From: a virus
Reading direction: 5' to 3' (one strand)
DNA length: 30,968 nt
Virus record (IMG/VR): IMGVR_UViG_3300020204_000236
Coordinates: 1 to 30,968 of that record
Shown piece by piece: positions 5,237 through 30,553 of the stretch (position 1 is its first letter; each line of letters opens with the position of its first letter). The translations under genes and the position numbers were made by a program. The notes below the pieces were generated by a model. That model was not told where the DNA came from. It saw nothing but the letters and a program-made list of their open reading frames with translations, and made no database searches.

Positions 5237-6454
5237 TTATCCAATATAAATGTGTAATGGAACTTTAGATAGCATTTTGTTCATAGACTCAGATTCTTTA
5301 TCCTTGTTTTCTAATTGGTTGACACGTAAACTTTTCTCCAACATTTCTCGTAATTTCTCGATAAGATTGCTTGTTTCCTCCTTAGCCTCAGCACGTAATT
5401 CAGCACCATCTAAGGTAACTTCGCCACCTGGAATTGGAACCGTGCTATACTTTTGAAGTATACGACCAAGTGTTTCTTTACAAAGTGCTAAGAAATACTT
5501 TTTAATCCATTGTTTTCCTGACTGATTAATTTTACAATATGTACAATATTCGTAAGGGATATCACTCGGATCACTAACATATTCGTATCTTGAACCACTA
5601 AAAAAATTGGTAATATTTTTATCATTTTCTAGATAATAATCAATCCAAATTTTTACATCATTCATTGGTATTGGGAATATTCTGAGTTTATTATTACCAA
5701 CTATTTCAAAACTATATTGACTCTTACGTACCATATCATTGAATTCAATAGCTTGAATACGTTCTAAGTCTTCAAATATCGGAGTCATCAAGAATTGAGT
5801 TGCCGGACTATAAGCACTAAAACCAAGTTCTGATAATATGTTACTATAACTCATACCAGTCATGCTGAATGGATCGTATATACGAGCAACAGCCGGTGTT
5901 CTAAAATGAAATACTCTACGAACTTCAATTCTTGATCCGGTCAAGTGTTCTATATCTTCACCAATCAATTTGTTTAAATCGTATAATTGTTCACTACCAC
6001 TTATACTTGCAGATACGTTTATATAATTTCTCTTTAGTGGTGTTTCACCATTCACTAGAGCTTCACTACCATATTGTTTACTAAGTTGTACAACAAATGG
6101 CAAACCAGTGCTTTTTACGCCCAGTCCAGTTAAATTTGGATATTGATCTTGTGGTAAACCAGTTAAATCTGCCATGTTGTTAACAATATTAAACTCGTTA
6201 ACTACACGATTATATTCAAGAACGGATTCTTCAAAACAAGCATAGAAATTTTCATCTATCATTTCTATATCAACAATTGGATACCCAAGACGTTTCGCAG
6301 CCCACATTGCACTGCTACTACAATCATTTTCAAACGTGGTCTCACCACTATTACAGATCTCGTCCAAATAATAACCAAAAGGAACGTTGCTAGACGTTAC
6401 AGCACTACCACTGCCGGGCCATCTTATCCTATCTTGATCTAAATTAGCACTCAT
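5237..6454 (-). CDS. 13: gp13-like neck protein
   Basis: A 405-residue protein. The N-terminal part has AKRLGYPIVDIEMIDENFYA, then CFEESVLEYNRVV, the helical domain typical of gp13-type neck proteins. The C-terminal part has QWIKKYFLALCKETLGRILQ, then VPIPGGEVTLDGAELRAEAK, again typical of that family (terminal helices that close the head). T4 gp13 is about 309 residues, so this one is larger. It is the first gene of the neck operon. The motif ATATTTATA lies only 4 nt before the ATG (6459-6467), so no Shine-Dalgarno site can fit. Confidence 0.75.
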   Translation of the reverse strand: MSANLDQDRIRWPGSGSAVTSSNVPFGYYLDEICNSGETTFENDCSSSAMWAAKRLGYPIVDIEMIDENFYACFEESVLEYNRVVNEFNIVNNMADLTGLPQDQYPNLTGLGVKSTGLPFVVQLSKQYGSEALVNGETPLKRNYINVSASISGSEQLYDLNKLIGEDIEHLTGSRIEVRRVFHFRTPAVARIYDPFSMTGMSYSNILSELGFSAYSPATQFLMTPIFEDLERIQAIEFNDMVRKSQYSFEIVGNNKLRIFPIPMNDVKIWIDYYLENDKNITNFFSGSRYEYVSDPSDIPYEYCTYCKINQSGKQWIKKYFLALCKETLGRILQKYSTVPIPGGEVTLDGAELRAEAKEETSNLIEKLREMLEKSLRVNQLENKDKESESMNKMLSKVPLHIYIG

Positions 6455-6458
6455 TTAT

Positions 6459-6467
6459 TATAAATAT
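6459..6467 (-). promoter_or_regulatory. ATATTTATA start-proximal motif (neck operon)
   Basis: The minus strand reads ATATTTATA, 4 nt upstream of the ATG at 6454. It is the candidate late promoter core for the gp13-gp14-gp15-like operon. Confidence 0.6.
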
Positions 6468-6511
6468 CGAATGAATGGTAATTTCACTATTTTAATGGTA
6501 TATATGTAATT

Positions 6512-6649: not shown

Positions 6650-6915
6650 ATAAATTTGATTATTTTAACAACAAGATTTCCTGTTCCTTTGATAACCCTA
6701 TGATATGTTTCTTTTGGTATAAAAATTTTTTTATCAAAAGAAACTGGTAGCGAATTATCTAATTGTATTTGCCAATTACCTTCATTTTTTACCACTTCTA
6801 TCAGCCTATCTTCTTTATCCAAATGCCATTCTAATTGATGAATATCTACATTTGAATTGAATTCACGAATATATTCATTATTTCCTAAATTTGTTTCGTT
6901 ATATGGTAAACTCAT
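6646..6915 (-). CDS. small cupin-like protein
   Basis: An 89-residue protein. It has REFNSNVDIHQLEWHLDKED, then a strand-rich middle (NWQIQLDNSLPVSF), then KIFIPKETYHRVIKG near the C-terminus. This is the layout of the short single-domain cupin-like proteins found in T4-type phages: WHxDxED plus a later IPxxxxHRV histidine. The histidines could bind a metal, but no substrate can be assigned. It overlaps the HAD-metallopeptidase gene by ATGA (6912-6915) and the 45-residue gene downstream by ATGA (6646-6649), so translation is probably coupled. Confidence 0.6.
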   Translation of the reverse strand: MSLPYNETNLGNNEYIREFNSNVDIHQLEWHLDKEDRLIEVVKNEGNWQIQLDNSLPVSFDKKIFIPKETYHRVIKGTGNLVVKIIKFI

Positions 6916-7928
6916 ATTTTAATGATCTTACTAGCAGACCCTTTTTCTCTCATATATCTATTGAATTCAACAAATAAATCTTCCGCATTCATTCTGGCAT
7001 CTACTTCCCAAGGTAGAGTTTTTTCTTTTTCTTCATCGTCATATTTAGGATATTCTTTACCATCCCAACTATTATCTACAATGTTGTATCTACCATCTTC
7101 AACTTGTTTGATGTGCCAGCATTCGTGTGCTAATGTTTTAATTTGATTATCGCTACTATGAGGACTGTTTGTTCTCATAATAATCTTATAGCTGTCTACT
7201 TTATATGGTTTACTCTTACCTTTAACATCTACCTTACCCTGAACTTTTCCATCTAAATTACCAAACTCTAATTTGATTTTACCGGTGGGTAGATTTAATC
7301 TTTTAGCAAAAAATTTATACGCAGTTTTAAGTCTTTCTTTATCAACGATATTTTTTAGTATTTCATTTAAATTAGTACCAAATTTAGGTAAATTATCAAC
7401 CTCATGTTTTAAAGGTGTAGACAAATCAACCAATTTATACTTGATTGGCAAATTCTTAATTGAATTGAAAACTGTATTAACATTCTTTGGACTATCATCG
7501 ATAAAAAATATATCATTAAATCCTTCGTTATTAATTTTATCAACAATCCAATCCGCTTTAGCCTGCGGATTACCAGTTCCAAGAGTTATAACCGGCAAAT
7601 CAATTTTAAATATCTTATTGATAATATTCTTGATGTGCTTATTAGCTTCATCTCCTCTAGCCGTCAGTATGACAGTCAACCTATCTTTAACGCCTGCATT
7701 TACAATTTTATAAAATCGTTTAGCAACTGGCTTAATGATTTGAGGATTAATAATTGTTTCAAATTGACTGAAATCAAACTCATCTCCTGGTTTTGGTTCA
7801 TAGACTGCATATTCAGCAGGTGTAAGATATGAAAACTTACCAGGCCCTTGCTTTAATAATACCTTTGCGGTTGTATGAAAAAGTGTATCGTCAAAATCAA
7901 ACACCCTTAATTTTTTGGTTTGAATCAT
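6912..7928 (-). CDS. HAD-family phosphatase fused to an HExxH zinc metallopeptidase domain
   Basis: A 338-residue protein with two domains. Residues 8-15 are RVFDFDDT, the DxDxT motif of HAD phosphatases (nucleophile D11, acid D13). Then come VILTARGD (motif II threonine) and IFFIDDSPKNV (motif IV acids). The C-terminal third has LAHECWHIKQ, a zinc metallopeptidase HExxH (H268, E269, H272), followed by PWEVDARMNA. E308 there is a plausible third zinc ligand, as in minigluzincins. The gene is joined to its neighbours by 4-nt ATGA overlaps on both sides. The phosphatase could act on nucleic-acid ends, nucleotides or protein. The peptidase target is unknown. Both active sites look intact. Confidence 0.75.
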   Translation of the reverse strand: MIQTKKLRVFDFDDTLFHTTAKVLLKQGPGKFSYLTPAEYAVYEPKPGDEFDFSQFETIINPQIIKPVAKRFYKIVNAGVKDRLTVILTARGDEANKHIKNIINKIFKIDLPVITLGTGNPQAKADWIVDKINNEGFNDIFFIDDSPKNVNTVFNSIKNLPIKYKLVDLSTPLKHEVDNLPKFGTNLNEILKNIVDKERLKTAYKFFAKRLNLPTGKIKLEFGNLDGKVQGKVDVKGKSKPYKVDSYKIIMRTNSPHSSDNQIKTLAHECWHIKQVEDGRYNIVDNSWDGKEYPKYDDEEKEKTLPWEVDARMNAEDLFVEFNRYMREKGSASKIIKI

Positions 7929-9205
7929 AGTAAAGCCTTAATAATTTTTTTGTAAATTGATTCTTTCTTAACTAATTGATCCAATGGCACACCTCTATAT
8001 TTTTGTCTTATTTGCGCAATAGGCATACCATATTGTTTTTCAGCCTGTGCTGCTAAACTATATCTATCAAGCTTTTCTTTTTCTTTAGCATGTAGTTTAC
8101 GTGATACACTAGCCGCAACAACACTTTTTACATTGTCGGTATAATACTTTTCACCCGAATTCAATAAATCATTTAGTATCTTAATTTCAATTTCTAAACT
8201 ATCCACTTCACGTTCCAAATTGGCTTTTTCAGCAGTTGTAAACTTTGCTCCTGTTGTATGTAATTTGCCTCTCTTTTCAACAAACTCTTGGGTCTTATCA
8301 TCAATTACTTTTTCTAATGATATACCAGCTGGTTTATTATCAGGTTCCAAAAATGCATAGGAAATAGTTTTTTCAGAATCTATTGGTGCCATTGTTGGCA
8401 TATCTGTATCAGTTATTACTATAGTAACATTATTACCATCAATGAATAATACATCACCGAAAATTTTCATGCCTTTTAATTTTACTTTGTCTCCAATCGT
8501 AAAATACTTTGTAGCTTCATTATCATCAGATTGTGATTTAGGTGTTGTAGGTGTCGTTGGTTCTTTCTTGGGTTCATCAATACCATACAATTCATTGTAG
8601 GTATAGATTTTGCTGCCTGGTTCATATAATACTTCTTTTACATTATAACCATTGAATTCTATGGCATATTCATATTCTTTCTTAAACGGCATCAATTTAG
8701 ACAAATTAGATGTCCAAAATGATACAATAATAGCTTTACCTCTTGGAATAGCTGATTCAATTTTTATATCTAAATTTGTAGTTGTTGTTTCTTCAGAATC
8801 ATCATCTACTTCGAATATCCTACCCTTTAGTAGTGGATCGGCATAAGGACCAAATCTACCAAGACCTTTTAATAAATTTTCTAGTTGTAAATGACCACCG
8901 CCATTATTTCCGCTCTTTAATTGTCTTAATGCTTTTTGTGCCCAATAATCAAGTTGATCACGATCAGATGTATATTGTATATCAGGAGCTTTATCCAATT
9001 CATCAATCTCTTTTAGTACATCCGGATCATCACAAAGAAATACTTTTTTAATAACGCTATATCCAAATACCAAATTCTTATTTGCTTTTTCATCTTTATA
9101 AACAAGAAAAGCACATTTATTAGCTGGAGTAGAGTAATTATAAGTCTTTTTCTTAAAATATACGGTATCTGGATTTTCAATCAAAAGTCGGTTTAAACTA
9201 ATCAT
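7925..9205 (-). CDS. unknown protein with capsid-targeting-like N-terminal leader
   Basis: A 426-residue protein of no recognised family. It starts MISLNRLLIEN, which ends in LxE (L-I-E before N) like the leaders on several other proteins here. A Thr/Pro-rich linker (EPKKEPTTPTTPKSQSDDNE) near residues 210-230 separates two parts. After it, YFTIGDKVKLKGMKIFGDVL looks like a small SH3/KOW-like barrel. The last ~130 residues are charged and probably coiled-coil or helical. It heads a coupled cassette (ATGA overlap with the HAD-metallopeptidase gene) and has ATATTTATA 5 nt before its ATG. Likely a virion-internal protein (inference). Confidence 0.6.
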   Translation of the reverse strand: MISLNRLLIENPDTVYFKKKTYNYSTPANKCAFLVYKDEKANKNLVFGYSVIKKVFLCDDPDVLKEIDELDKAPDIQYTSDRDQLDYWAQKALRQLKSGNNGGGHLQLENLLKGLGRFGPYADPLLKGRIFEVDDDSEETTTTNLDIKIESAIPRGKAIIVSFWTSNLSKLMPFKKEYEYAIEFNGYNVKEVLYEPGSKIYTYNELYGIDEPKKEPTTPTTPKSQSDDNEATKYFTIGDKVKLKGMKIFGDVLFIDGNNVTIVITDTDMPTMAPIDSEKTISYAFLEPDNKPAGISLEKVIDDKTQEFVEKRGKLHTTGAKFTTAEKANLEREVDSLEIEIKILNDLLNSGEKYYTDNVKSVVAASVSRKLHAKEKEKLDRYSLAAQAEKQYGMPIAQIRQKYRGVPLDQLVKKESIYKKIIKALL

Positions 9206-9210
9206 ATAGT

Positions 9211-9219: not shown

Positions 9220-9241
9220 TATTTGTAGGATATATCGTTTG

Positions 9242-9250: not shown

Positions 9251-9256
9251 TGAAGA

Positions 9257-9808
9257 ATGATATTAATGACATTTTTAACCATATTGCTACTAATTCTCTG
9301 GTGTAGTATATTTGAGTGGCTATTACATAAATATTTGATGCATAAGTCACTTTTCAAGTTTGAATACGCGTATAAAGCTCACACCAAGGTACATCATAAT
9401 ATTTATAAGTACGACGAAACTTATCACGCTCAAAATGGAGATGATGGTAAAAAGATTCCTATGGCTTGGTGGAATGGCGTGGTAATCTCATTACTAGCTG
9501 CATTACCTATGTTTATATTTGGATATAAAATATTCTTGTTAACATTTGTTGTGTCTATGTGTTATTACGGAATGTATGAATTTATACACTGGTGTATGCA
9601 TTTTCCAAAAAGTAGAAATGTAGAATATAGATTATGGTTTAAGAAACTAAACGGACACCATTTATTACATCATAGATATATGCATAAAAACTATAATGTG
9701 GTACTGCCATTTGCTGATTGGTTATTTGGTACTTTATTAATAAAAAGTCCAATTAAATTTGGTCAATGTAAACCATCTTATTGTGTACCAAATGTTCAGC
9801 CAGAATAA
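9257..9808 (+). CDS. membrane fatty acid hydroxylase/sterol desaturase superfamily enzyme
   Basis: A 183-residue integral membrane protein of the di-iron fatty acid hydroxylase/carotene hydroxylase superfamily, which uses O2 to hydroxylate lipids or carotenoids. The histidine clusters are HKYLMH (H24, H29), HTKVHH (H42, H46, H47), HWCMH (H111, H115) and HHLLHHRYMH (H134-H143). Hydrophobic helices lie at ~5-20 and ~74-108, and the C-terminus has PFADWLFGTL, as in hydroxylases of this fold. The length fits the short carotene-hydroxylase-like branch. ATG 9257 is chosen because the ATG at 9250 soon meets a stop. The gene stands alone on the plus strand and overlaps the P-loop kinase gene tail-to-tail by 13 nt. 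The substrate is unknown. A host-envelope lipid is plausible. Confidence 0.82.
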   Translation: MILMTFLTILLLILWCSIFEWLLHKYLMHKSLFKFEYAYKAHTKVHHNIYKYDETYHAQNGDDGKKIPMAWWNGVVISLLAALPMFIFGYKIFLLTFVVSMCYYGMYEFIHWCMHFPKSRNVEYRLWFKKLNGHHLLHHRYMHKNYNVVLPFADWLFGTLLIKSPIKFGQCKPSYCVPNVQPE

Positions 9809-10605
9809 TTACTTCTAGGACGCATTGGTTCTATATTAGGATAAACCAAGTCTAGATGATCAAAATCGTCTTTAGTAGTGTCTACTTTTTTGACATTATT
9901 ATAATAATTTTGCAACCACATCTTACCGATTGGATTCTTAACAGGACTCTTCAAGAATTGAATCACACTTCTCAATACACTTTTATCGATTGGCTCACCA
10001 CTTTTTGTACGATCAACAATCTTGAAATTGTTCCCAAATATGTTTTGAAAATGTCCCATGTTATTTTGACAACTGAACCACATTTGCGACAATAAATCTT
10101 CAGGTATTTTACGAGGTCTTTTATTGTTTCGTTCGATTGCTACTTGCAAGCTTGTGTTTACAAATATCATATAACAATCATAACCATATTGCTCCATAAT
10201 TCTTTTCTTTATTTGTATGGATTGTATACTATCACCTGTACCATCTATGATAAGACCCAATCGGGAGTTTCTATACATGACCAATTTTTTATTTGTTATT
10301 TGTTTTGCTTTTTCTCTAGTAGATTGTGGGCCGATTGTCAATTTTTTAAATTCATCTGGACTCAACTTACTCAAATCAGATGAAATCTTCATTTTCTGAA
10401 GCATTTGTTCAAATTCATTATCACTGTTGATTAACTTTAACCCATACTTGTTGACCGAGGAATCAGACGGTAAATCAAACAATTCATTTGCAACTGTGCT
10501 TTTACCACTACCAGGTCCACCCGCCATAAATATACATTTGAGTGTAGATGGATCGTCTACACCTTCTGTCAATCTGTTTTTTTTAAGTAATTCAAGTAAG
10601 TTCAT
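9796..10605 (-). CDS. P-loop kinase (zeta-toxin/polynucleotide-kinase-like) with LxE leader
   Basis: A 269-residue protein. Residues 1-14 (MNLLELLKKNRLTE) look like a capsid-targeting leader ending in LTE before G15. The kinase domain follows: Walker A GGPGSGKST at 29-37, INSDNEFE, RLGLIIDGTGD (Walker B-like strand), then RNNKRPRKIPEDLL, an arginine-rich lid. This layout is common in P-loop kinase-like proteins of T4-type marine phages and is close to the zeta-toxin and polynucleotide kinase groups. The phosphorylated substrate cannot be told from sequence. The start is preceded by an imperfect version of the AT motif (ATATTTAAA). If packaged, the enzyme would act on entry into the host (inference). 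Confidence 0.75.
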   Translation of the reverse strand: MNLLELLKKNRLTEGVDDPSTLKCIFMAGGPGSGKSTVANELFDLPSDSSVNKYGLKLINSDNEFEQMLQKMKISSDLSKLSPDEFKKLTIGPQSTREKAKQITNKKLVMYRNSRLGLIIDGTGDSIQSIQIKKRIMEQYGYDCYMIFVNTSLQVAIERNNKRPRKIPEDLLSQMWFSCQNNMGHFQNIFGNNFKIVDRTKSGEPIDKSVLRSVIQFLKSPVKNPIGKMWLQNYYNNVKKVDTTKDDFDHLDLVYPNIEPMRPRSNYSG

Positions 10606-10620
10606 ATATTTAAATATAAT

Positions 10621-11454
10621 TCACATTACGAATATATCGCCTATATTAGCTCCTAAAACATCTTCAATTAGATATGGTATTGTATTTGCAATATTATCTA
10701 ATTTTTCTTGTGCTTCTTCTAAATTTTGTGTGGTTGCTATAGTTTTGCTACCATAAGGACCAAATCCTACCAAAAGCTTTTTGGTAAGAGGATTAAATGT
10801 AATTTTACCGTCTTTTAAATATTGTACAAACAATTCATAGTAAAATTCGTAGTATCTACGATGTAGTTTACCTTCTCTGGCACTACGCATTGTACCAATA
10901 TGGTTAAACAATCTACCTTTGGCTAAATCAAATGTTCTGGATTTTTTATAATCATCACTGCCATATCTTGTGTTTTCTTTGCTTTTACCGTAAATCTTTA
11001 ACAGTTCATTAAATTCTTTATCAACCCAGTCAGTATATTCTTTGAATTGATGTGTTTTATTCATTACGTGACCTACTCTATGAATTATAGTCCACGCAGT
11101 CATAGGAATTTTATCAGCGGCTGTATTGCTTACAAAGAATACTGTGATGTTATCACTATTGATTTTGAATTGGTTAGGATCTAAACCCAAACCTTCTGGA
11201 TATGGTTTTACGAGAAATTCGTATGGTACTCTACCTTTTTCGCTGAATTGTCTTAAACCAGGCTTGTTAACAAAATAAAAATCAAAGTTGACTGATGTAT
11301 TTTTTAACATATCCTTGACTTTTTGTATGGTTACTGGATGACTTAGTGCAGCTCTGTCCCTTGGATCTTTGTATGAAGCGCCTTTTTCAAATCCGCCTAA
11401 TGTTGTATATGCGCCTAGGGGGGCTTCGTTTAGTATATCTTTAAATTTGATCAT
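10621..11454 (-). CDS. protein with capsid-targeting-like leader and degenerate metallopeptidase-like HRxGH motif
   Basis: A 277-residue protein starting MIKFKDILNE before A11, a clear LxE leader. Residues 18-36 are TLGGFEKGASYKDPRDRAA. In the middle, AWTIIHRVGHVMNKTHQF contains HRVGH (125-129), which matches an HExxH zinc helix in position but has Arg in place of the catalytic Glu. The rest is mixed alpha/beta with no recognised domain. It is coupled to the upstream gene by an ATGA overlap (11451-11454). It may be an inactive peptidase-fold virion protein. A genuine fold match needs structure prediction. Confidence 0.6.
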   Translation of the reverse strand: MIKFKDILNEAPLGAYTTLGGFEKGASYKDPRDRAALSHPVTIQKVKDMLKNTSVNFDFYFVNKPGLRQFSEKGRVPYEFLVKPYPEGLGLDPNQFKINSDNITVFFVSNTAADKIPMTAWTIIHRVGHVMNKTHQFKEYTDWVDKEFNELLKIYGKSKENTRYGSDDYKKSRTFDLAKGRLFNHIGTMRSAREGKLHRRYYEFYYELFVQYLKDGKITFNPLTKKLLVGFGPYGSKTIATTQNLEEAQEKLDNIANTIPYLIEDVLGANIGDIFVM

Positions 11455-13365: not shown

Positions 13366-13653
13366 TTAAACCTTATTTCCAAGTCTCTTGTTAACAATAG
13401 ATTGGACTTTCCTTAAAAAAGCAGCATCATCTGTTTTACCATCTCTTTCAGCAGCTGCTGCTTTTCTGGCAGCAATTACAGCATCACCAGTAGTAATCTT
13501 GCCATCACCGGTTTGATCCAATTTCTTGGTAACCTTTGGAGCTGGTGGTGATTGTTTCTTAGGCGCTTCTTTCTTAGGAGATTCTTTTTTAGCTTCTAAT
13601 TTAAGTTCTTCTAGTATTTCTTTGATTAAATTTTTAATTTCGTTACGCGTCAT
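13366..13653 (-). CDS. small protein with EF-hand/dockerin-like calcium loop
   Basis: A 95-residue protein. The N-terminus MTRNEIKNLIKEILEELKLE is an amphipathic helix containing LEE, perhaps another capsid-targeting leader. A Lys/Pro/Glu-rich linker follows (PKKEAPKKQSPPAPK). Residues 46-57 are DQTGDGKITTGD, which matches an EF-hand loop (D46, T48, D50, G51, I53) with Asp at position 12. Then come an Ala-rich helix and QSIVNKRLGNKV. It has a strong Shine-Dalgarno site (GAGGAG, 13661-13666) and ATATTTATT further upstream. Calcium binding is a fair guess. The partner is unknown. Confidence 0.62.
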   Translation of the reverse strand: MTRNEIKNLIKEILEELKLEAKKESPKKEAPKKQSPPAPKVTKKLDQTGDGKITTGDAVIAARKAAAAERDGKTDDAAFLRKVQSIVNKRLGNKV

Positions 13654-13914: not shown

Positions 13915-14256
13915 TTAATTAAAACTTTTACCACAACCACAAGTGCTTGCTGCATTTGGATTAATAAATTTAAAACCTCCGCCCATTAATTCATAAGAAT
14001 AATCTAGTTCAGCCTCTTTAATATAATTCGCACTAAAATTGTCTATGACTACACTCACACTTTCATATTCATATACCAAATCATTGTCTCTGATTTCATC
14101 AAATGTCATACCATACTGTAAACCACTACATCCACCTGCTTCTACAAATATTCTCAAACTTTTGTTTTTATAATCCTCTGTATTTTTAACTAAATTATTT
14201 ACTTCGGTTAAAGCATTATCAGTTAATTTAATTATTGAAGTTTCTAATTTTATCAT
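13915..14256 (-). CDS. A-type iron-sulfur carrier (IscA/SufA/ErpA/HesB family)
   Basis: A 113-residue protein of full family length. The three Fe-S ligand cysteines are present: GGCSGLQYGM (C43) and TCGCGKSF (C106, C108). The conserved NPNAA precedes the CGC pair. The family receives Fe-S clusters from a scaffold and passes them to client enzymes, and such genes recur in marine phages as host-metabolism genes. The start is 3 nt after the stop of the basic head-type gene (14260), with GAGGT in that gene's last codons as a possible ribosome site. Possible clients include phage or host enzymes needed for nucleotide supply (inference). Confidence 0.9.
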   Translation of the reverse strand: MIKLETSIIKLTDNALTEVNNLVKNTEDYKNKSLRIFVEAGGCSGLQYGMTFDEIRDNDLVYEYESVSVVIDNFSANYIKEAELDYSYELMGGGFKFINPNAASTCGCGKSFN

Positions 14257-14259
14257 AAT

Positions 14260-14862
14260 TTACCAAAATCTACCTCGGCCTTTATTACCTAAACTGCGCA
14301 TACGATGACTACGACAACTCCAATAACCGGCTGTTGTTCTGTCTTTCTTTTGAGCACATCTATGTCTAGCAGCAAAACTTTTTCGACGAGCTTTATTGCC
14401 TGCTCTACTTCTCATATTTGGATCTCCGAATGTTACTTTCTTGATTTTACCATTTTTACCTTTGACGTAGACAGCATATTTTTTTGGTCCACCTGGAGTT
14501 CTAACTGGTCTATTAAGTGTAACACTTCTGCCACGATGTTTAGCTTCAATTATCAAATCTTCTTCAATTTCAATCGGAGCATCCAAATAAACTTCTCTAC
14601 CCTCAAAAATTTCTTTTTTACCAAGGTCACTCTCAACCAATTCAGCGTCTGGATCACATAGTTCAATTAAATTATTGTAATATAACTTACGAACTTCTTC
14701 AATTAACTCAAAATAAGATTCACTATAAGTTCTAAAAATGTTTTCCATTAATGGAATTTGTTTTTCTAAATGATAATTTAAATTAGCTGTAATTACTGTA
14801 TCTTGCAGCATTTTCATCGGACAAAGTTCTTGATTTTCAAATAAATCGATTAATTTAATCAT
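14260..14862 (-). CDS. basic protein with capsid-targeting-like leader and phage GDPNM...ARxxC domain
   Basis: A 200-residue protein starting MIKLIDLFE before N10, very similar in style to the T4 Alt leader. Residues ~15-110 are helical and acidic. Residues ~127-200 form a strongly basic domain: KKYAVYVKG, KKVTFGDPNMRSR, KARRKSFAARHRC, DRTTAGYWSCRSHR and GNKGRGRFW. This arrangement (VTFGDPN, RRKSFxARHxC, YWSCR) recurs in many large phage genomes, including head-associated proteins. Its role is unsettled. The basic domain may bind DNA. A broken copy of the end lies at 13693-13841. ATATTTATA sits 4 nt before the ATG. Confidence 0.68.
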   Translation of the reverse strand: MIKLIDLFENQELCPMKMLQDTVITANLNYHLEKQIPLMENIFRTYSESYFELIEEVRKLYYNNLIELCDPDAELVESDLGKKEIFEGREVYLDAPIEIEEDLIIEAKHRGRSVTLNRPVRTPGGPKKYAVYVKGKNGKIKKVTFGDPNMRSRAGNKARRKSFAARHRCAQKKDRTTAGYWSCRSHRMRSLGNKGRGRFW

Positions 14863-18142: not shown

Positions 18143-19909
18143 TTATACGGTGTCAAGATCACTGATAAGAACTTTTCCATAGAATTCGGGGCGCACTACC
18201 TTCTTAGCGTAGCGGGTCATTACGCCTCTACGTGGTGTGAAGTTAGTTGGGTCATAAACCAATGGAGTTTGGATTAGTGGAATATATGGAGCATATACTG
18301 CACCGGTTTCTAGGAAGTTGCTTCCACGGAAACCAACCAAGATTACGTTATCAGTCATGTATGGGTTCTTGTAAACTTGGAAGCGACTTGCGAAGCTACC
18401 AACACGACTTACACCCATTGCGAACTTAGCTTGATCACCATCTGTGTTAACAACATAACCTGGGATTGATTCCAAGATAGTTGCTACGTCTGGTGAACAT
18501 ACTAGGAAGTTTGCACCACCACGTAGAGTCAATTGGTGAATCTTGTTTGAGACCTTTTGGATCTTGTTACCAAGAGTTTGGAACCAAGTGCTCTTAACGT
18601 AAGCAGTACGATTTGGTGAGCTGTTAACTACACGGGTGAAGTTAGCAACCGGAGTACCTGTTGTACCACCACCTGCAAAGCTTAGAGTCTTAGTGAACTC
18701 AGTACCAATTTGGGCTGACCAAGCTTCGGTAGTAGTACCAGTTACGGACTCGTTCAACATGTCTAGGATTTCGAGGTCGATTTCCATAGATACATATTCA
18801 CTCAATAGAGCAGTAAGTTCTGCTTCTGCATCGATGGAATGATATGCGTTCAAGTCTTGAGCCAATTCTGGAGTCCAGACTGCTTTCAACTTACGGGTCT
18901 TAGCAACTATTGGTTCGCTGTTTAGTACCAAGTTTACTTCAGGAATACTGATATCGTCACCGATAGGTTGTGTAGCGGTACCAGCAGCATTACCAGAACC
19001 TTCACCTGCGGTCTTACCAGCTTCAAAGTCACCACGGCGATTATCTGTAGGTTGAATTGTGTAGTTCAACTTTGGAGTTTGTGCTGGGGTAGCAGCGGTA
19101 CTTGATTGACTTACGAACAAGTTAATTACGTAGTTTGGTGCAGCAATAGTACCTGTATTTACTACGTTGGCGTAGGTGTTTAATACAGTTAGGCCTACGT
19201 TACCCGTAGTTTGCAGACCAAATGAACGTACTGCGTTCAAGTCAGCATTCCATACATAACCAGTAGCGGCTAAAGATCCGTTTGTGGCTTGAGTATTGTC
19301 GTTAATATCTAGAGCAATCTTGAAGACACCCTTAACATTAGTGCCTGACAATGAGGAGCTAAATGCTGAATCAAATTGTAGATCTTTCCAGCTTGCGGAA
19401 GTTACAGTTGCGTTTGCGGATGTGAATGCTGAACTCGTTACTACACGTTCAGAGTAAGCAAAACGACCTTGACCGTATAGACCATTTACTGCTGCATCGG
19501 TTGAACCGAACTTAGCAGAATTGGTACCACCGAACAAGCTAGTGCCTGGGGTTTGACCCAACTTACCAGTACCATACTTAAAGTCTAAGTAAAATACTAG
19601 ACCGGATGGTAAATTCATTGGTTGAACGCTTACGAATTCCTTAGCAGCAATTTCAGCGAATACACGGCGAACTAATGGTAGAGCAACGCCAGCCCATTGT
19701 TCTGAACTGGTTGATGTACCAGTTGTAGAAGCTTCATCTAGCAATTGCTTTGCTTGGTTTTCTAATAGGATTGACATGTGTGCCTTTTCAACACCAGTTA
19801 CGCCTTCAAGAAGGCCTGTCTTTTCCCACTTAGTTTGTAATCCACGGGTTTCGGCCATCAATTTGGCTTGTGGATTCATATTATTTGTTAATAGACTTTT
19901 TACATCCAT
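18143..19909 (-). CDS. 23: major capsid protein, gp23-like
   Basis: A 588-residue precursor of the T4 gp23 (HK97-fold) major capsid protein. The N-terminus has MDVKSLLTNNMNPQAKLMAE, then ILLENQAKQLLDEASTTGTS, then WAGVALPLVRRVFAEIAAKE and GLVFYLDFKYG, all typical of gp23. The C-terminal part has RRGVMTRYAKKVVRPEFYGK. The propeptide is probably cut by the gp21-type protease; LLDE before A60 fits LxE and is my best guess for the site. The Shine-Dalgarno site is AAAGGA before the ATG. It is preceded by the scaffold gene and followed by a strong terminator, as expected for the most expressed gene. Confidence 0.95.
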   Translation of the reverse strand: MDVKSLLTNNMNPQAKLMAETRGLQTKWEKTGLLEGVTGVEKAHMSILLENQAKQLLDEASTTGTSTSSEQWAGVALPLVRRVFAEIAAKEFVSVQPMNLPSGLVFYLDFKYGTGKLGQTPGTSLFGGTNSAKFGSTDAAVNGLYGQGRFAYSERVVTSSAFTSANATVTSASWKDLQFDSAFSSSLSGTNVKGVFKIALDINDNTQATNGSLAATGYVWNADLNAVRSFGLQTTGNVGLTVLNTYANVVNTGTIAAPNYVINLFVSQSSTAATPAQTPKLNYTIQPTDNRRGDFEAGKTAGEGSGNAAGTATQPIGDDISIPEVNLVLNSEPIVAKTRKLKAVWTPELAQDLNAYHSIDAEAELTALLSEYVSMEIDLEILDMLNESVTGTTTEAWSAQIGTEFTKTLSFAGGGTTGTPVANFTRVVNSSPNRTAYVKSTWFQTLGNKIQKVSNKIHQLTLRGGANFLVCSPDVATILESIPGYVVNTDGDQAKFAMGVSRVGSFASRFQVYKNPYMTDNVILVGFRGSNFLETGAVYAPYIPLIQTPLVYDPTNFTPRRGVMTRYAKKVVRPEFYGKVLISDLDTV

Positions 19910-19960: not shown

Positions 19961-21082
19961 TTACTTCTTAATTCCTGCGAGCTTTTGGAATCTTGAAGCC
20001 ATCACATCAGCTTGAGGTTCTACAATGGTAGATTCAGGCTTTGTGCTGGATACTGGTTTGCTTGCCAAACCTTCGGTGATAGTACTTACAGTTGCATTTG
20101 TCTTCTTTTTAACAACTGATCCACCTCCATTAATTGATTCGGCCAAAACTGTATATGCCAACTTGACTTCACGAATATTTTTAGTCAAGTCGAAAGTGTT
20201 AATAATCTTCAACTTTTGTTCTTCGGTCAAAGTCTTGCCCTTGAACAACTTGTTGGTGTATAGCAACTTAGCATTTAACAAATTGGTTTCTGATAGAACA
20301 CCTTTCAAATACTTGACAGTTTCTACGTGTTCACTCAATTGGTTCTTCAATGCTTCGTTTTCTTCATTAATAGCTACTAGAGCTTCTGCCATTTCTTCAC
20401 AGGTTACATCCCCTTCAGATGGTGATGGAACTTGACCTGGGGCAGGAGCTGCGGATGCGGCTGGAACTGCTTCTGGAGCAGCTGCAGCTGGAGCAACAGG
20501 AGCGGCTGGAGCTGCTGGAGCTGCTACGGCAGCAGCGGCTGGATCGACGTTTTCTTCTTCAGTTTCTAGTTCTGCTAGAAGTTCATCTAAATTTACTGTT
20601 TCATCCATATCATCCATTTCCTCCAGGCCATCCGCATCTTTATTGATGCTTTCGTCTTTCTCTGGTTTGTCTGTGTCATCATGTCTGTGTCCGACCTCAC
20701 CTTCTAGCTCTGCTAGAATTTCTTCAAGTTCTTCGCTGGTTACTTCGGCACCCTCTTCTTCTTCAAGCTTAGCAACTTCAGTTTCGTTACCACTTGTTTC
20801 GGTTGATGTCTTGTTAGCCGAAGCAGATGGAGATTTTGGATGTTGCGTATCAGCAGTATTACCCTTTTCACCGCCGATACCGGATGAAGCTAACTTTTCT
20901 TCAACTTTACCTTCTTTAGTTTCGGTGTTTTCTTCTTCAACCATTTCTTTCTTGAGTTGGTCTGCGAACATTTCTTTCATGCTCTTAGCAAAATTTTCCT
21001 CAAGAAAAGTTTTTGCATTAGCAATTGCAGTTTCACGAACTGCCTTTGCGTCTGCGATGCTTTCCTTTAATAGATCGCTCAT
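19961..21082 (-). CDS. 22: prohead scaffold/core protein, gp22-like
   Basis: A 373-residue protein just upstream of the major capsid gene and downstream of the protease, the gp22 place. The N-terminus MSDLLKESIADAKAVRETAI and the next ~50 residues are helical. A very acidic region follows (EVAKLEEEEGAEVTSEELEE), then an Ala/Pro-rich linker (~180-215), then a helical coil and an end MASRFQKLAGIKK. An acidic, helical, low-complexity core protein is what T4-type scaffolds look like. It should form the core around which gp23 assembles and then be cut up by the protease. MSDLLKE could also be a cleavage site. It has GAAAGG as ribosome site and overlaps a 25-codon frame by ATGA. Confidence 0.78.
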   Translation of the reverse strand: MSDLLKESIADAKAVRETAIANAKTFLEENFAKSMKEMFADQLKKEMVEEENTETKEGKVEEKLASSGIGGEKGNTADTQHPKSPSASANKTSTETSGNETEVAKLEEEEGAEVTSEELEEILAELEGEVGHRHDDTDKPEKDESINKDADGLEEMDDMDETVNLDELLAELETEEENVDPAAAAVAAPAAPAAPVAPAAAAPEAVPAASAAPAPGQVPSPSEGDVTCEEMAEALVAINEENEALKNQLSEHVETVKYLKGVLSETNLLNAKLLYTNKLFKGKTLTEEQKLKIINTFDLTKNIREVKLAYTVLAESINGGGSVVKKKTNATVSTITEGLASKPVSSTKPESTIVEPQADVMASRFQKLAGIKK

Positions 21083-22264: not shown

Positions 22265-22725
22265 TTAGGTTGGTCGATATCTCTTGAAGAAACAATGCTA
22301 ACTGAATCAGGTCTACCTTGTACTTGATACGATTGAGGAGATTCCGTAATTGGATCCGCAATCTCAAAATAACGTTCTAGTTTCATACCGATTTCTTCAT
22401 AAAGCATTTCAAGTTTGTGTTCTATTTCTTTAATCTTTTGTGATTCTTCGTAAAGTTTACCGGCCATCCTCTTTACTTCTTTCATATCACGTTCAACCAT
22501 CTTAGCTTCCATCCAATCACCACACTCCTTTAGTGTGTAACGCTCGGCTAAATTAATCACATCAATAATTTTATGTGCTGTTTCATAAATAGATTCAGCC
22601 TTTAAGCTCTTGCGATATTCATTATAAGCTTTGATGGTTTCATATAGCTTTACTTTTTCTTCTTTTGTAAGAGGAGTATAAGCAACTTCGGTTGAATTCT
22701 CTACTAGATGTTTTAGCTTTATCAT
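22261..22725 (-). CDS. helical protein with capsid-targeting-like leader
   Basis: A 154-residue protein starting MIKLKHLVE before N10, an LxE leader. The rest is nearly all helix and coiled coil (KEEKVKLYETIKAYNEYRKS, ...EIEHKLEMLYEEIGMKLERYF), with a short tail QVQGRPDSVSIVSSRDIDQPN. It sits between the protease and scaffold genes, so it is probably an internal core or head-packaged protein, comparable in place to the small core proteins of T4-type phages. ATATTTATA lies 5 nt before the ATG. Confidence 0.62.
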   Translation of the reverse strand: MIKLKHLVENSTEVAYTPLTKEEKVKLYETIKAYNEYRKSLKAESIYETAHKIIDVINLAERYTLKECGDWMEAKMVERDMKEVKRMAGKLYEESQKIKEIEHKLEMLYEEIGMKLERYFEIADPITESPQSYQVQGRPDSVSIVSSRDIDQPN

Positions 22726-22747: not shown

Positions 22748-23350
22748 TTACAATTCGGAAAGAATATTATGAATTAATCTTTCTGCATTTGTATAAGGAT
22801 TTACGATAATTTTATTATCTACACTTTCGTTGATTTTACCTTGTGGATACATGAATGCACCTTGTGTGCTTGGATTGCTTACAAAGTCAAAAGCAATTAA
22901 ATCAAAATCATCTTGTACAATATCAGCACCTTCACGCATATCTTTCTTTACACTACCTAGACCACGACTACTAATACCCAATAGAATACCAGATTGTAAT
23001 AGATCTTTTAAAATATTACCACTGGGTGTAGGAAGAATTTCTACAGTACCAACCAAATCTTTACCATCCCATCCCATGTCAACAATGTTATGGCTAACAT
23101 TCTTTAAATTAACAACGGACGATTCTGGATGGTCAAGTTCGCCCATAGCACGACGTTGCTTTACAAAGTTTTCCATATACTTGTCAGCTTCACGTTTTAA
23201 TACGTCTTCTGGATATAAACGACCATTTTGGTTCTTTGCGTCAGCACGTTGTAATACTCCACTAACTAATAATTTGCCGTCTTTTAAAGACTCATTTAAT
23301 GAAGTTTTTTTAAATTTGAATGGTAATACATCAATTAATATTTGTTTCAT
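22748..23350 (-). CDS. 21: prohead protease, gp21-like
   Basis: About 200 residues from ATG 23350, which lies 1 nt after the stop of the upstream gene. An upstream ATG would add 18 residues inside that gene and is less likely. This is the serine protease of T4-type proheads that cuts core, capsid and packaged proteins after LxE-type sites. MGELDHPES carries the catalytic His; GILLGISSRGLGSV carries the catalytic Ser. NGRLYP near the N-terminus and DLIAFDFVSNPSTQGAFMYP further on are family landmarks. Its own N-terminus has KTSLNE before S, a possible self-cleavage site, and the C-terminus is LIHNILSEL. Confidence 0.93.
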   Translation of the reverse strand: MKQILIDVLPFKFKKTSLNESLKDGKLLVSGVLQRADAKNQNGRLYPEDVLKREADKYMENFVKQRRAMGELDHPESSVVNLKNVSHNIVDMGWDGKDLVGTVEILPTPSGNILKDLLQSGILLGISSRGLGSVKKDMREGADIVQDDFDLIAFDFVSNPSTQGAFMYPQGKINESVDNKIIVNPYTNAERLIHNILSEL

Positions 23351-23351
23351 A

Positions 23352-25299: not shown

Positions 25300-25313
25300 A
25301 AGTTCCAATTAAA

Positions 25314-25322
25314 TATAAATAT
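25314..25322 (-). promoter_or_regulatory. ATATTTATA motif downstream of the portal gene
   Basis: The minus strand reads ATATTTATA, 14 nt before the ATG at 25299. A TATAAATA (T4 late core) also lies further upstream at 25353-25346. Confidence 0.5.
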
Positions 25323-25345
25323 ATGTAAAGATTAAAATTATTCGC

Positions 25346-25353
25346 TATTTATA
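25346..25353 (-). promoter_or_regulatory. TATAAATA, T4 late promoter core candidate
   Basis: The minus strand reads TATAAATAG about 46 nt before the ATG at 25299. It is an exact match to the T4 late -10 element. Confidence 0.4.
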
Positions 25354-25361
25354 CTTTTCTT

Positions 25362-27239: not shown

Positions 27240-27255
27240 ATCTTACCGCCATATA

Positions 27256-27269
27256 TATAAGTATTTATA
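27256..27269 (-). promoter_or_regulatory. late promoter candidate of the portal gene
   Basis: The minus strand reads TATAAATACTTATA: the T4 late core TATAAATA (27269-27262) overlaps ATACTTATA (27264-27256). The leader to the ATG at 27239 is 16 nt long and carries GGCGGTAAG. Confidence 0.55.
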
Positions 27270-28878
27270 ACAACCAAGTTAAACTTTCTTTTTTACTGTT
27301 TATATTAGCATTTGGGTTGAAATCCCACCCTTCTGTAGGAGAACCAAATGGTTTTGTTAATATAGGAGAATTATGAACGCTGGATACTTTACTAATGCCT
27401 GCTAACATTTGTCTATTGTAAGCAATCTGATCATTTCTAAGTCTAAGTGCAGTTTCACGTACCCATAATCCTATTCCCATAGACATTACCAAATCATCAT
27501 TGTAGCCACGTAGTGCTTCTGCTTTTGGTCCATTCCAAATAAAAACATTCAACTCTTCATATAATCGTTTCGATTTAATAATTACTTGTTTTTGTCTAAA
27601 AAATAACTCCAAATTACTTACAACTAATGGTCTGTTTTTAGTAGTTGTAGTAAATCCAGCAACCATCTTTTTATCTTGTGCATGTAATTTGTTGCTATAT
27701 GTTTTTTCCACATCCACAATTGTGAGATCACTTGAACTATAAAACGTATGAGGATAATTTCTGTCAATAATCTGTTGAAGTGTACCCCAACCAACGTTAT
27801 TGTTTTCTACAACTAATAGTGCATTATTATATTCAGTAGCAATAGTTACTAATAGATTGCCATAATCTTTTGTAGTTAATTGCCCTTTATATTCTGCAAC
27901 TTGTTCCATAGTATCAACATCTATAACATGAAAAGCGCTGAAATCTGCACCATCGCCTCTAGCACAATCAGCTGTCACTAAATAATTCTTGCTATAATTT
28001 GGGTAATCCCATATCCATAAATCTTGATTATTACCTCGCCTTTCTATAGGATCTTTTATGTATGTTTGTTTATAAAATTCCAATACATCAACACTAACTA
28101 CTTGATTGCCTGATGTACTAAAATCACAATCACATTCTTGCGCAGCACCCTTTACACCTGATAATTCTGTCTGATTATCTCTCCACGATTGATCTCTTTC
28201 TGGATGTAAATGCCATGGCAATTTTATTGTTTTGAATCCTTTTTTACCAGACTTTTCGTTTTCTTCCGATTCAATCCATGTTTTATGAAAAAAGTTACCA
28301 ACGCCGTTCGGTGTACTTAATATAATCGATCTACCACCAGTAGATAAAGTATATTGTGATGATAACCAAATTTCTTCTATACCATCAATAAACGCAGCTT
28401 CGTCTATAATTAACAATGATAATGCTGATGAACGACCTGCTGTGCCAGCCGATGAGACAGCTTTAATTTGTGATCCATTCTTTAATCTCAGTGACAATCT
28501 ATTATCTTCCACACATGGCACTTTTAACCAACTAGGAAGATTATCATTAGCAAATCTTACCTTGGTAACGATTTCCTTTGCGGTTTCCTGTGTTATACTA
28601 ATACATAAAATATTCTTATCATTATGGAATGTCATTAACCATAAACTATAAGCAGCAGTAAGAGTGCTAATACCCATCTGACGACTTTTAAGAACAATGT
28701 TCAATTGATTATCAACAAAGTCTTGTAATGCCTTCTCTTGAAATGGATACAATTCAAATCCAACTGTACCACGTATGGGATGTTGAATCTTTACATACTT
28801 CTTTATGAAGTATATAGGATTTTCAATACATTTTTTATATTCTTGCTTTATTATCTCTCTTAAGTTTTGCTGACTCAT
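27265..28878 (-). CDS. 17: large terminase subunit, gp17-like
   Basis: A 537-residue DNA packaging motor. The ATPase half has VLKSRQMGISTLTAAY (Walker A), then LLIIDEAAFIDGI (Walker B and catalytic Glu), then SRSIILSTPNGVGNF-like motif III (GGRSIILSTPNG). The nuclease half has YLVTADCARGDGADFSAF (first acids), ALLVVENNNVGWG and GYNDDLVMSMGIG (last acids), an RNase H-type headful nuclease. The length matches the T4-type family. It overlaps the upstream zinc-finger gene by 44 nt, and the portal gene follows at once, so T4 genes 18 and 19 are not between them here. Confidence 0.97.
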   Translation of the reverse strand: MSQQNLREIIKQEYKKCIENPIYFIKKYVKIQHPIRGTVGFELYPFQEKALQDFVDNQLNIVLKSRQMGISTLTAAYSLWLMTFHNDKNILCISITQETAKEIVTKVRFANDNLPSWLKVPCVEDNRLSLRLKNGSQIKAVSSAGTAGRSSALSLLIIDEAAFIDGIEEIWLSSQYTLSTGGRSIILSTPNGVGNFFHKTWIESEENEKSGKKGFKTIKLPWHLHPERDQSWRDNQTELSGVKGAAQECDCDFSTSGNQVVSVDVLEFYKQTYIKDPIERRGNNQDLWIWDYPNYSKNYLVTADCARGDGADFSAFHVIDVDTMEQVAEYKGQLTTKDYGNLLVTIATEYNNALLVVENNNVGWGTLQQIIDRNYPHTFYSSSDLTIVDVEKTYSNKLHAQDKKMVAGFTTTTKNRPLVVSNLELFFRQKQVIIKSKRLYEELNVFIWNGPKAEALRGYNDDLVMSMGIGLWVRETALRLRNDQIAYNRQMLAGISKVSSVHNSPILTKPFGSPTEGWDFNPNANINSKKESLTWLL

Positions 28879-29482
28879 ATTTTGTTTCTAATTCACTAAT
28901 CTCAGCATCTATATTTTCTAATCTTTTTACTACGGCTGTTAAGTCTAACTCTATATTTTCACGGATTTTTGACATATCTGGCACTCCTTCCCAATGTTCT
29001 ATAGATCCATCTTCTTCAAGAAATTCAACTGGTTTATTATGATTTTGGTCACACCAGTTTTTAGCCTCTTCAAATTTATTCTTATAATCCAACAATGCTG
29101 ATTTTATATTCTTGAGTTCACGGATTTTGTTGAATGTATCCCAAATACCCAATTTTTTAAGATGAGTTTCTTCATTTATAAAACATTCATAACATAATCC
29201 AGACTTTGGCCATGTTCTATCATCCAAATAACTACCCCATCGAACATCCATATTGCAGTGTTTACAACGTTGTTCCACAACGATTGATGCTCGTTTTGAA
29301 ACACGGCGTTTACTACCATTTTTCCAAATCCACTTCCGTCCCTGCCCATCCTCCCACTCATCACCTTCTTTGCGTTTACTATTTTCAAGATTAGAATCAT
29401 AACCAACTTGCACGAATGGACGATTACCATCCACGTAATCTTTAATAATATCGAGATTGCTTTTACCTAATGCTCTTTTCAT
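28835..29482 (-). CDS. zinc-finger and coiled-coil protein, possible small terminase or packaging factor
   Basis: A 215-residue protein overlapping the large terminase gene by 44 nt. The N-terminus is MKRALGKSNLDIIKDYVDGN; GDEWEDGQGRKWIWKNGSKR follows. A four-Cys zinc finger comes next, with CKHCNMDVRWG and CYECF about 22 residues apart. The second half is helical, with a closing coiled coil (AVVKRLENIDAEISELETKY). Small terminase subunits often precede the large one, so this gene may do that job, but a Cys4 finger is not typical of T4 gp16. No -10/-35 promoter is evident. ATATTTGTT abuts the ATG. Confidence 0.55.
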   Translation of the reverse strand: MKRALGKSNLDIIKDYVDGNRPFVQVGYDSNLENSKRKEGDEWEDGQGRKWIWKNGSKRRVSKRASIVVEQRCKHCNMDVRWGSYLDDRTWPKSGLCYECFINEETHLKKLGIWDTFNKIRELKNIKSALLDYKNKFEEAKNWCDQNHNKPVEFLEEDGSIEHWEGVPDMSKIRENIELDLTAVVKRLENIDAEISELETKYESAKLKRDNKARI

Positions 29483-29500
29483 AACAAATATGTATTTATT

Positions 29501-30553
29501 TTATTTACCAAAACCACTTTGTAGTCCCCTAATAATGAAACTACCAGTTATTTTAAATGGCTTACTATGAATACTTGGATCTCTTACAACAATGCCTTCA
29601 TGTTTTTCTAGATCACCAATTTCACTAGTAGCATTCTTGAGAATTTCATCGCCCAACTTGATTGTAGTAATATAAACAATAATATCATTAACTATCTTGT
29701 CTATGTCTTGACCCTCAAAATCTCGCGTAATATTTTTACTTGCAGCTGCTTTCTGAAATTGTTCACGGGTAATTAACGGTGTTTGAATAGTCACATTAGT
29801 CAACCAATCTTTCAAACTCTTGGTTACTGGTTTTCCTTGAGGATACAATGTAACTTTTTCGCCCAATGGTTTTGAAAGATTTGGACGAGTTTTGAATTTA
29901 GTATCAACACTTCCTAATACTTTAAATCCATATTTCTTAGCAACCAAATTCAACTTATTGATATAAGATTGCATTGCGGTTTTATCATAAGAAATTTCAG
30001 TAGCTACTCTTGATTTGACACTACCGTCTTTACCAAATGTCTTTGGCTTTATTTCTTTTAAACCATGAATTGCCAAAAAGTTACCAATGTCTTCGTATCC
30101 AAGAACGTTTGTTTGTCCTTCAACATATTCAATGTTCAACAAAATGTTTGGATTGTTCAATAACCCAAGAGCTTTCAATTCGTTTTGAGTTGTTGGTATA
30201 GCTTCATCAAATATTTGAATGACTCTGGTACCAATTTTAATGAACCCATGTTCTGAACCTGTTTCTTGATTTGGTAAAAATCTAGCACTTAGATCTTGTG
30301 GGCGCATTCCCTTAATGTCTAGTGGTTTCGCACTACCACGGTCCATCACAAATTCTCCATTGACTAAACGAATACTAGCATTGACACCATCAATCTTGAC
30401 ACTACCAGTTCCTTTCTCCAACGATGCGATTGACTTTTGAAAAACGTTTATAAATTCTTTTGCAGTAGATGTAAAATCAAATGGATGCTCCATATGACCA
30501 CCAGCACCACCTTCTTTGAGAACTTCCGACAAAATATTACTTAGCTTTATCAT
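29501..30553 (-). CDS. nucleotidyltransferase/ligase-fold protein with capsid-targeting-like leader
   Basis: A 350-residue protein starting MIKLSNILSE before V11, an LxE leader. The body has ligase-superfamily motifs: motif I SVKIDGVNASIR (KxDG at 53-56, Lys53 the expected nucleotide-binding lysine), then LLNIEYVEG (~138-146), NFLAIHGL (motif IIIa-like), HEGIVVRD (motif IV, 318-325) and KPFKI (motif V, 331-335). So it is probably an ATP-dependent DNA or RNA ligase, or an enzyme using the same covalent-AMP step. A Gly/His-rich stretch (EGGAGGHMEHPF) follows the leader. It overlaps the flavodoxin-like gene by ATGA. If packaged, it would enter the cell with the DNA and could seal or repair ends (inference). 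Confidence 0.72.
   Translation of the reverse strand: MIKLSNILSEVLKEGGAGGHMEHPFDFTSTAKEFINVFQKSIASLEKGTGSVKIDGVNASIRLVNGEFVMDRGSAKPLDIKGMRPQDLSARFLPNQETGSEHGFIKIGTRVIQIFDEAIPTTQNELKALGLLNNPNILLNIEYVEGQTNVLGYEDIGNFLAIHGLKEIKPKTFGKDGSVKSRVATEISYDKTAMQSYINKLNLVAKKYGFKVLGSVDTKFKTRPNLSKPLGEKVTLYPQGKPVTKSLKDWLTNVTIQTPLITREQFQKAAASKNITRDFEGQDIDKIVNDIIVYITTIKLGDEILKNATSEIGDLEKHEGIVVRDPSIHSKPFKITGSFIIRGLQSGFGK

Follow-up and report, generated by a model that had tools for sequence, protein, structure and literature searches.

Short LxE-ending leaders on unrelated proteins of a T4-superfamily phage as probable capsid-targeting signals

The window analysed here, the 30,968-base virus record IMGVR_UViG_3300020204_000236, covers part of the genome of a T4-superfamily phage infecting bacteria. 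It has PHROG matches for terminase, portal, protease, capsid protein and head-tail adaptor, and, judged by capsid protein, Microcystis phage Mel-JY01 and Flavobacterium phage immuto come closest among named relatives (~50% identity). Six unrelated proteins, all encoded on the minus strand, start with a short leader that closes with LxE, each reading exactly as an earlier note on this DNA had given it, with leucine at P3 and glutamate at P1 in 6/6. We consider it very probable that these leaders serve capsid targeting of the T4 kind, with cleavage after L/I-x-E by an S77 prohead protease and retention of the protein in the head. From the leaders, the protease, a cut-site rule that holds over orthologues and clustering near head genes, all read from sequence, we infer that the proteins dock on the scaffold, are cut and packaged, and are ejected. 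The leaders are listed below with a slash at the candidate cut, and their proteins are named by first base or length.

9176..9205, minus strand: leader MISLNRLLIE/N of a 426-residue protein without assigned function; LxE/NPDT junction in orthologues
10564..10605, minus strand: leader MNLLELLKKNRLTE/G of a P-loop kinase; sequence read, orthologue junction and structural model
11425..11454, minus strand: leader MIKFKDILNE/A of a 277-residue protein without assigned function; L/I-x-E/xP junction in orthologues
13606..13653, minus strand: second-type leader MTRNEIKNLIKEILEE of a 95-residue protein, a weak case; second pattern
14836..14862, minus strand: leader MIKLIDLFE/N of a 200-residue protein; sequence read
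22699..22725, minus strand: leader MIKLKHLVE/N of a 154-residue protein adjoining the protease, a probable core protein; leader in 8/8 family members, LxE-rich
30524..30553, minus strand: leader MIKLSNILSE/V of a 350-residue ligase-fold protein; sequence read
to 30512, minus strand: second candidate cut in the 30553 protein, after residue 14, MIKLSNILSEVLKE/GGAGGHM; orthologue conservation
30550..30966, minus strand: C-terminal portion of another protein with a leader (255 residues; begins MISLSDLLIE/A in L003 and G002); the rest lies beyond the window edge

As we picture it, an amphipathic leader of ~9-14 residues would dock its protein on the phage's own scaffold core during head assembly, the S77 prohead protease would next cut after L/I-x-E, and the matured protein would remain in the head beside the DNA, probably to be ejected along with it. 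The published gp21 rule is L/I-X-E, and the excerpted map of T4 IPIII assigns hydrophobic residues 4 and 7 to targeting and L/I 8 and E 10 to processing (PMC9026906). This register is fully matched by the leaders at 30553, 11454 and 9205; those at 14862 and 22725 are one residue shorter (L4, L7, E9), and the one at 10605 is 14 residues long. The earlier note had proposed T4-type targeting and cleavage, and this proposal is partly supported, by the L/I-X-E rule, the protease and an LxE junction that is kept while leaders change, with the IPIII register holding for three of the six. The head proteins that bear on it are the following.

19733..19909, minus strand: propeptide of the major capsid protein, with a predicted cut at LLDE/A following residue 59 that aligns with FLTE/A of T4 gp23
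19961..21082, minus strand: scaffold protein, probable from its location and its high LxE content, on which the leaders likely dock; precedes the capsid gene, no PHROG match
22748..23350, minus strand: prohead protease, Peptidase_S77 (PF03420, 2.4e-29), candidate N-terminal site SLNE/S after residue 20 (23291-23350) from alignment

The gp21-type protease that the earlier note had recognized is borne out by this Peptidase_S77 match and by GELxHP and SSRG blocks that align with those of T4, which we take to be the catalytic His and Ser blocks. FLTE/A is presumably the cut site of T4 gp23. A hydrophobic-x-E lies at the N-terminus in 10 of 11 aligned proteases, three of which (window, G006 and G011) are close kin; RM378 is without it, and the site proposed in print for the T4 protease is a different one, LIE-9 (PMC9026906). 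SLNE/S, the window protease's form of this site, had been put forward in the earlier note as a weaker case.

The strict leader pattern was found in 5/30 window genes against a mean of 0.29 in column-shuffled N-termini, which preserve position-specific composition (p 0.001, 1000 shuffles), and at 0/131 internal methionines. The strict pattern having been derived from leaders of the window itself, its p-value there is in part circular, and the relatives and the orthologue tests are a fairer guide. It does not cover the leaders at 10605 and 13653, which fit a second pattern (2/30 window genes, 0.006 expected), likewise made after such sequences were seen; the 13653 leader, one of the weaker cases from the start, has only this second pattern and remains weak. 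A pattern-free test of N-terminal similarity among non-homologous window proteins, with 3 signal-like proteins of 30 excluded, gave 5 pairs where 0.71 were expected (p 0.003). The same test yielded a clear excess in G002, immuto, Atu_ph07 and T4 as well, and a weak one in G007 and Mel-JY01.

Strict-pattern enrichment over shuffles extended from the window to seven of eight relatives, namely G002, a longer contig that carries the window's genes (6/71), G011 (8/118), G007 (7/83), G012 (6/115), G008 (5/98), G010 (4/102) and G003 (3/55), all with p <= 0.009, and the pattern occurred in 5/216 immuto genes (p 0.02). Over the eight relatives, leader genes numbered 36/244 within 15 kb of the head block and 6/775 beyond. 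By family, a count that strips most shared ancestry, leaders occurred in 9/76 near the head block and 4/467 far from it (p 6e-6, the Fisher p-values of gene and family counts still ignoring kinship). In the three largest leader families the leader is present in 8/8, 8/8 and 7/7 members.

The leader consensus varies by phage: MI[KS]LxxLLxE in the window, MENFDLKKFLVENKLT and MKKSQLRxIIKEEL in immuto, M[KR]WxQL[TN]E in Atu_ph07 and MKTYQEFIAE in T4. The leader code looks phage-specific, as would be expected if leaders dock on each phage's own scaffold. In immuto (L082, L084-L086), three leader families occur together (MENFDLKKFLVENKLT, MKKQILSEQFRRMQKLAG and MKKSQLRxIIKEEL), and some of the genes that bear them are distant from the head block.

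Conservation of the cut site was read in orthologues. For the kinase, sequences came from IMG/VR, cellular genome contigs and named phages (136 loci, some contigs duplicated; 20 were dropped, having no P-loop by pattern on the scanned strand). Among 87 distinct upstream sequences, 81 carry E|G[VLIFYM]xD (E|GxxD), where the P1' glycine is fixed by the search pattern itself and P3 and P2 are free of it. In these 81, P3 is L in 54, I in 20, V in 5 and M in 2, P2 takes 14 residue types, and there are 79 distinct leader strings, 69 with a methionine in view (the nearest at least 7-29 residues away) and 10 without; in the Atu_ph07 kinase the nearest methionine falls inside a fusion. P3 and P1 are thus constrained and P2 is free, the same rule as published for gp21, and other families behave likewise. 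Four of the six exceptions (L342, L351/L363, L368 and L376/L377) have LxE ahead of a variant start, LFE stands at a different spacing in L318 (26% identical), and L399 is truncated. Contigs in genome records of bacteria and archaea also carry kinase orthologues (L299-L319), many with leader and junction; nearly all of these records are metagenome-assembled genomes, and the contigs are probably mis-binned phage contigs.

The 426-residue family keeps its LxE/NPDT junction in 7/7 distinct sequences behind five leaders (24/25 loci read), and the 277-residue family its L/I-x-E/xP junction in 6/6 distinct sequences, including two in which another domain precedes it in a fusion. In ligase-fold orthologues (33 distinct, chosen by the GGAGGHM block), all 18 leader variants have L/I/M-x-E before the block and LxE four residues earlier, and the second conserved site at residue 14 of the 30553 protein (xE/GGAGGHM) may be the real cut. 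Outside the window clade, the cyanophage cytidylyltransferase begins MK[KNS]F[SN]AFL[TNSIV]E in 75/80 loci, with P2 the most variable place, and DUF6267 proteins have hydrophobic-x-E ahead of [DE]KNT in 20/21 distinct starts; the domain patterns matched 75/80 cytidylyltransferase and 72/80 DUF6267 loci, and the start was taken as the methionine nearest the domain. In HTVC008M the Pfam match to DUF6267 starts at residue 11, beyond the leader. The probable cutting point of the tag is thus kept in related viruses while the rest of the tag changes.

The site is also found at the joints of fusion proteins. Atu_ph07 gp053 consists of leader MKWNDLNE, a YRGM domain and then the kinase, joined at VTE/GVND, and two contigs encode leader polyproteins.

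L297 2605-3804: leader polyprotein, 277-residue domain after I-x-E
L298 2560-3825: leader polyprotein, 277-residue domain after I-x-E

In both, a leader (MIKLKNIIQE and MIKLRSLLKE, respectively) is followed by an unrelated domain of ~120-150 residues and then by the 277-residue domain, with joints IKE/API and ITE/APV. Hydrophobic-x-E at such joints indicates that the site persists away from the N-terminus. A GNAT-like reading of the first L298 domain was an impression only and had no Pfam support. Nine tandem proteins, Atu_ph07 gp053-gp061 (L157 325-9593), share leaders of the M[KR]W type and a YRG motif that is ADP-ribosyltransferase-like by reading; one array member and the fusion protein were scanned and gave no ADP-ribosyltransferase Pfam match.

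If the glutamate before the domain instead belonged to the structure of each fold and the leader were a mere N-terminal helix, nothing would be cut. We consider this very unlikely. The E and G are (nearly) invariant in the kinase alignments and the leaders are predicted to be helical, as such an explanation would have it, but the same rule recurs in unrelated folds with P3 constrained, P2 free and leader sequence and length varying, fusions retain the site, and the kinase of Bacillus phage G, a phage compared for the kinase only, has no junction.

Which leader proteins would stay intact in the head is a separate matter, on which the frequency of L/I-x-E bears. The observed count exceeded expectation in the 200-residue protein (9 vs 2.69), the scaffold (16 vs 6.82), the 154-residue protein (9 vs 3.69), the 24424-25299 protein (11 vs 5.9) and the capsid protein (7 vs 3.45). 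The 200-residue, scaffold and 154-residue proteins, being LxE-rich, resemble T4 core proteins, which are cut to fragments (PMC9026906). The 154- and 200-residue proteins look like core proteins cut to pieces rather than intact cargo, and the latter has an internal candidate site.

14263-14544, minus strand: 94-residue basic domain (29 K+R vs 2 D+E) of the 200-residue protein, behind internal candidate site LIIE/A after residue 106

This site is I/L/V-x-E in six sequences, and the 200-residue protein perhaps releases its basic 94-residue domain. One could suppose that the leader proteins do go to the prohead and are cut there, but serve as dispensable parts of its core or scaffold, with little or nothing injected, an alternative that we judge improbable. 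The four most LxE-rich proteins of the window (the 200-residue, scaffold, 154-residue and 24424-25299 proteins) fit it, given the excerpted T4 account (PMC9026906), and the whole window is LxE-rich (134 vs 92 expected). It is at odds with the kinase, in which LxE is not significantly enriched (4 vs 2.05, p 0.1), and with the ligase-fold, 277-residue and 426-residue proteins, which lie outside the twelve strongest, and the enzyme folds of the kinase and ligase-fold proteins would be lost on fragmentation. These four are therefore the better candidates for packaged, intact cargo, and the 154- and 200-residue proteins would more likely be core components that are cut further. The earlier note had loaded a ligase-fold enzyme, a P-loop kinase, a peptidase-like protein and others into the head; the first two keep their place on that list, the 22725 and 14862 proteins fit the core better, and the label "peptidase-like" found no Pfam match.

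9796..10605, minus strand: polynucleotide-kinase-like P-loop protein, proposed head cargo; Pfam AAA_33 1.9e-11, Foldseek
29501..30553, minus strand: ATP-dependent ligase-fold protein, proposed head cargo; K53-I-D-G and E-G-I-V-V-R motifs, PDB neighbours

The kinase matches Zeta_toxin and AAA_33 in Pfam. By its AlphaFold model (predicted local distance difference test, pLDDT, 82), its P-loop fold is closest to known polynucleotide kinases: the best PDB neighbour is the bacterial polynucleotide kinase 4gp6 (Foldseek E 3.9e-8), bacterial polynucleotide kinases take ranks 1-5 and 7, T4 kinase 1ly1 is at rank 36, and adenylate kinases and zeta toxins also match. A gene without a leader at 6912-7928 (minus strand), overlapping the 426-residue leader gene, starts FDFDDTLF (HAD-like by reading) and has a PHROG polynucleotide kinase match at residues 3-151 (2.1e-5); it is a possible phosphatase partner of the kinase. 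In the ligase-fold protein, KIDG and EGIVVR-type motifs are invariant in 20 sequences (75-89% identity), and KxDG and EGxV are, we assume, the nucleotidyltransferase motifs of ATP-dependent ligases. Its model (pLDDT 70; model and alignment are without Met1, so that numbering there is one lower than in the protein) has ligases in 35 of the top 36 Foldseek rows, the matches to RNA and DNA ligases being consistent but weak (best E 0.024, T4 Rnl2; 0/179 at 0.001), and a best Z of 6.8 (T4 Rnl1, 171 residues), with none >= 8. The protein had no match in the named-phage collection. AlphaFold pLDDT is below 50 in the ligase-fold leader and in kinase residues 1-6.

Virion mass spectrometry is available for two other phages that encode leaders. 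The cytidylyltransferase T4-GC190 was detected in virions of cyanophage S-SM1 (PMC3037559, in excerpt); its gene there, SSM1_190, starts MKKFSAFLNE/A. The excerpted report on Atu_ph07 lists 29 detected virion proteins from CDS 31-76, two alone of which had been predicted structural beforehand (PMC6102473). Short LxE leaders occur in 10/46 called genes of that stretch and 10/754 elsewhere, with two of the three detection-rich stretches compared and detection known per stretch, not per leader gene.

A number of results weigh against T4-type targeting. The ten Atu_ph07 leader genes are mostly paralogues, from which the pattern was itself drawn, and the second detection-rich stretch (CDS 170-215) has a short LxE leader in 0/48 genes. 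None of the detected S-SM1 or Atu_ph07 proteins is orthologous to a window protein, and we found no published cleaved N-terminus for these leader families. The HTVC008M cytidylyltransferase starts MKTLKELLRKKVG, without LxE, and some DUF6267 starts leave just 4-6 residues before the cut; T4 Alt loses only six residues, at ITE-6 (PMC5694885, in excerpt), so very short leaders are possible. Low AlphaFold confidence is found elsewhere in both models, not in the leaders alone. Near the head block, 67/76 families have no leader, and 4 far families have one.

The genome-wide tests are uneven in the same way. The strict pattern was not significant in the 303-kb G006 (3/377, p 0.09). A looser T4-plus pattern reached significance in the window, in seven relatives and in Atu_ph07, and not in T4, immuto, HTVC008M, Melnitz-2, Mel-JY01, RM378, SPO1 or G006; it was judged too loose for single genomes. 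Pattern-free start similarity was mixed in G011, G012 and Melnitz-2 and showed no excess in G008, HTVC008M, RM378 and SPO1, and in immuto and Atu_ph07 some of the excess is due to non-leader pairs. Of the genomes without excess, SPO1 has no Peptidase_S77 match; HTVC008M and RM378 have one and count, with G008, on the unfavourable side. Since these two have the protease yet no start excess, the pattern-free test supports T4-type targeting without deciding for it. A bare count of LxE within the first 18 residues separates starts from internal methionines in the window (16/30 vs 31/129) and G002 (23/72 vs 52/260) but gives no signal in G006 (54/404 vs 253/1436), and was dropped for pattern-specific tests; LxE alone is therefore weak, and the signal lies in the whole amphipathic pattern. 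These failures, with a strict pattern drawn from the window and several T4-like genomes without genome-wide enrichment, are what would be predicted by chance, or by a general composition bias at N-termini in an AT-rich genome, combined with a pattern fitted afterwards. We nevertheless give such an origin hardly any credence, since position-preserving shuffles and the pattern-free test do not reproduce the window signal, leader families cluster with head genes, and junctions are conserved in orthologues.

Other genes of the window were noted in passing. A Mom family protein (PF25680, 2.2e-43), a DNA-modification gene, lies at 15868-16641 on the plus strand, opposite to the head genes, and a prepilin-type N-terminal methylation motif (PF07963, 3.2e-9) occurs amid the head block at 12424-13080 (minus strand). 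Pfam genes for Fe-S cluster assembly, inorganic pyrophosphatase, fatty acid hydroxylase and a GIY-YIG nuclease stand among the head genes (13915-14256, 16683-17216, 9257-9808 and 17296-18033, respectively), and a highly repetitive GTSG-type protein at 3-3197 (minus strand) continues past the window edge. PADLOC gave 0 matches among eight proteins run. In G006 (23004-28882, L098-L099), the terminase open reading frame has just 277 residues and is followed by a separate one of 402 residues, for which a Pfam scan gave no match; the portal frame there has 1266 residues, double the window's portal, and inteins or other insertions are possible.

The arrangement resembles known systems in part. As with the T4 capsid-targeting sequence (CTS) on IPI, IPII, IPIII and Alt, cut by gp21, a short hydrophobic N-terminal leader with an L/I-x-E cut sits on unrelated proteins beside a related protease; unlike there, the consensus is MI[KS]LxxLLxE, the proposed cargo is a kinase and a ligase-fold protein rather than small inhibitors, and relatives have fused leader polyproteins. 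In the giant phages SPN3US and phiKZ, a diverged relative of gp21 likewise cuts head propeptides behind a glutamate, yet in the excerpts cited several of these exceed 100 residues, the cut motifs being A-x-E or S/A-x-E (PMC5694885, PMC10052503, PMC9026906), compared with 9-14 residues and L/I-x-E in the window. In the Atu_ph07 YRG-motif array, too, adjacent proteins bear a common leader (M[KR]WxQL[TN]E), and one of them is joined to the same kinase; the array differs in leader sequence and in being mostly one paralogous family. The spread of leaders over unrelated folds, which the earlier note held to be new, is already in print for T-even phages, whose internal proteins are a highly diverse set with the CTS alone conserved (PMC3012670, in excerpt) and whose CTS has been suggested as a route by which T4-like phages take in various proteins (PMC9026906). 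In a necessarily incomplete literature search, we found no prior description of leaders being exchanged on a conserved kinase, of polyproteins with such leaders or of a packaged kinase-ligase pair.

More tentatively, and with clear doubt, we propose that the T4-superfamily head is a general injection vessel with a phage-specific leader code, into which any domain, or any string of domains joined by hydrophobic-x-E, could be loaded, and that the cargo here includes an end-repair pair, polynucleotide-kinase-like and RNA-ligase-like, entering with the genome. We hypothesize that this packaged pair could repair nucleic-acid ends at DNA entry. If so, the kinase and ligase could mend RNA or DNA that host defences such as anticodon nucleases have cut, ahead of phage gene expression, and pre-emptive repair or counter-defence at DNA entry would become directly testable. 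A free leader with hydrophobic-x-E before a conserved domain would then predict head-packed proteins of T4-related phages from sequence across lineages, and many environmental-phage genes without function would become candidate injected effectors.

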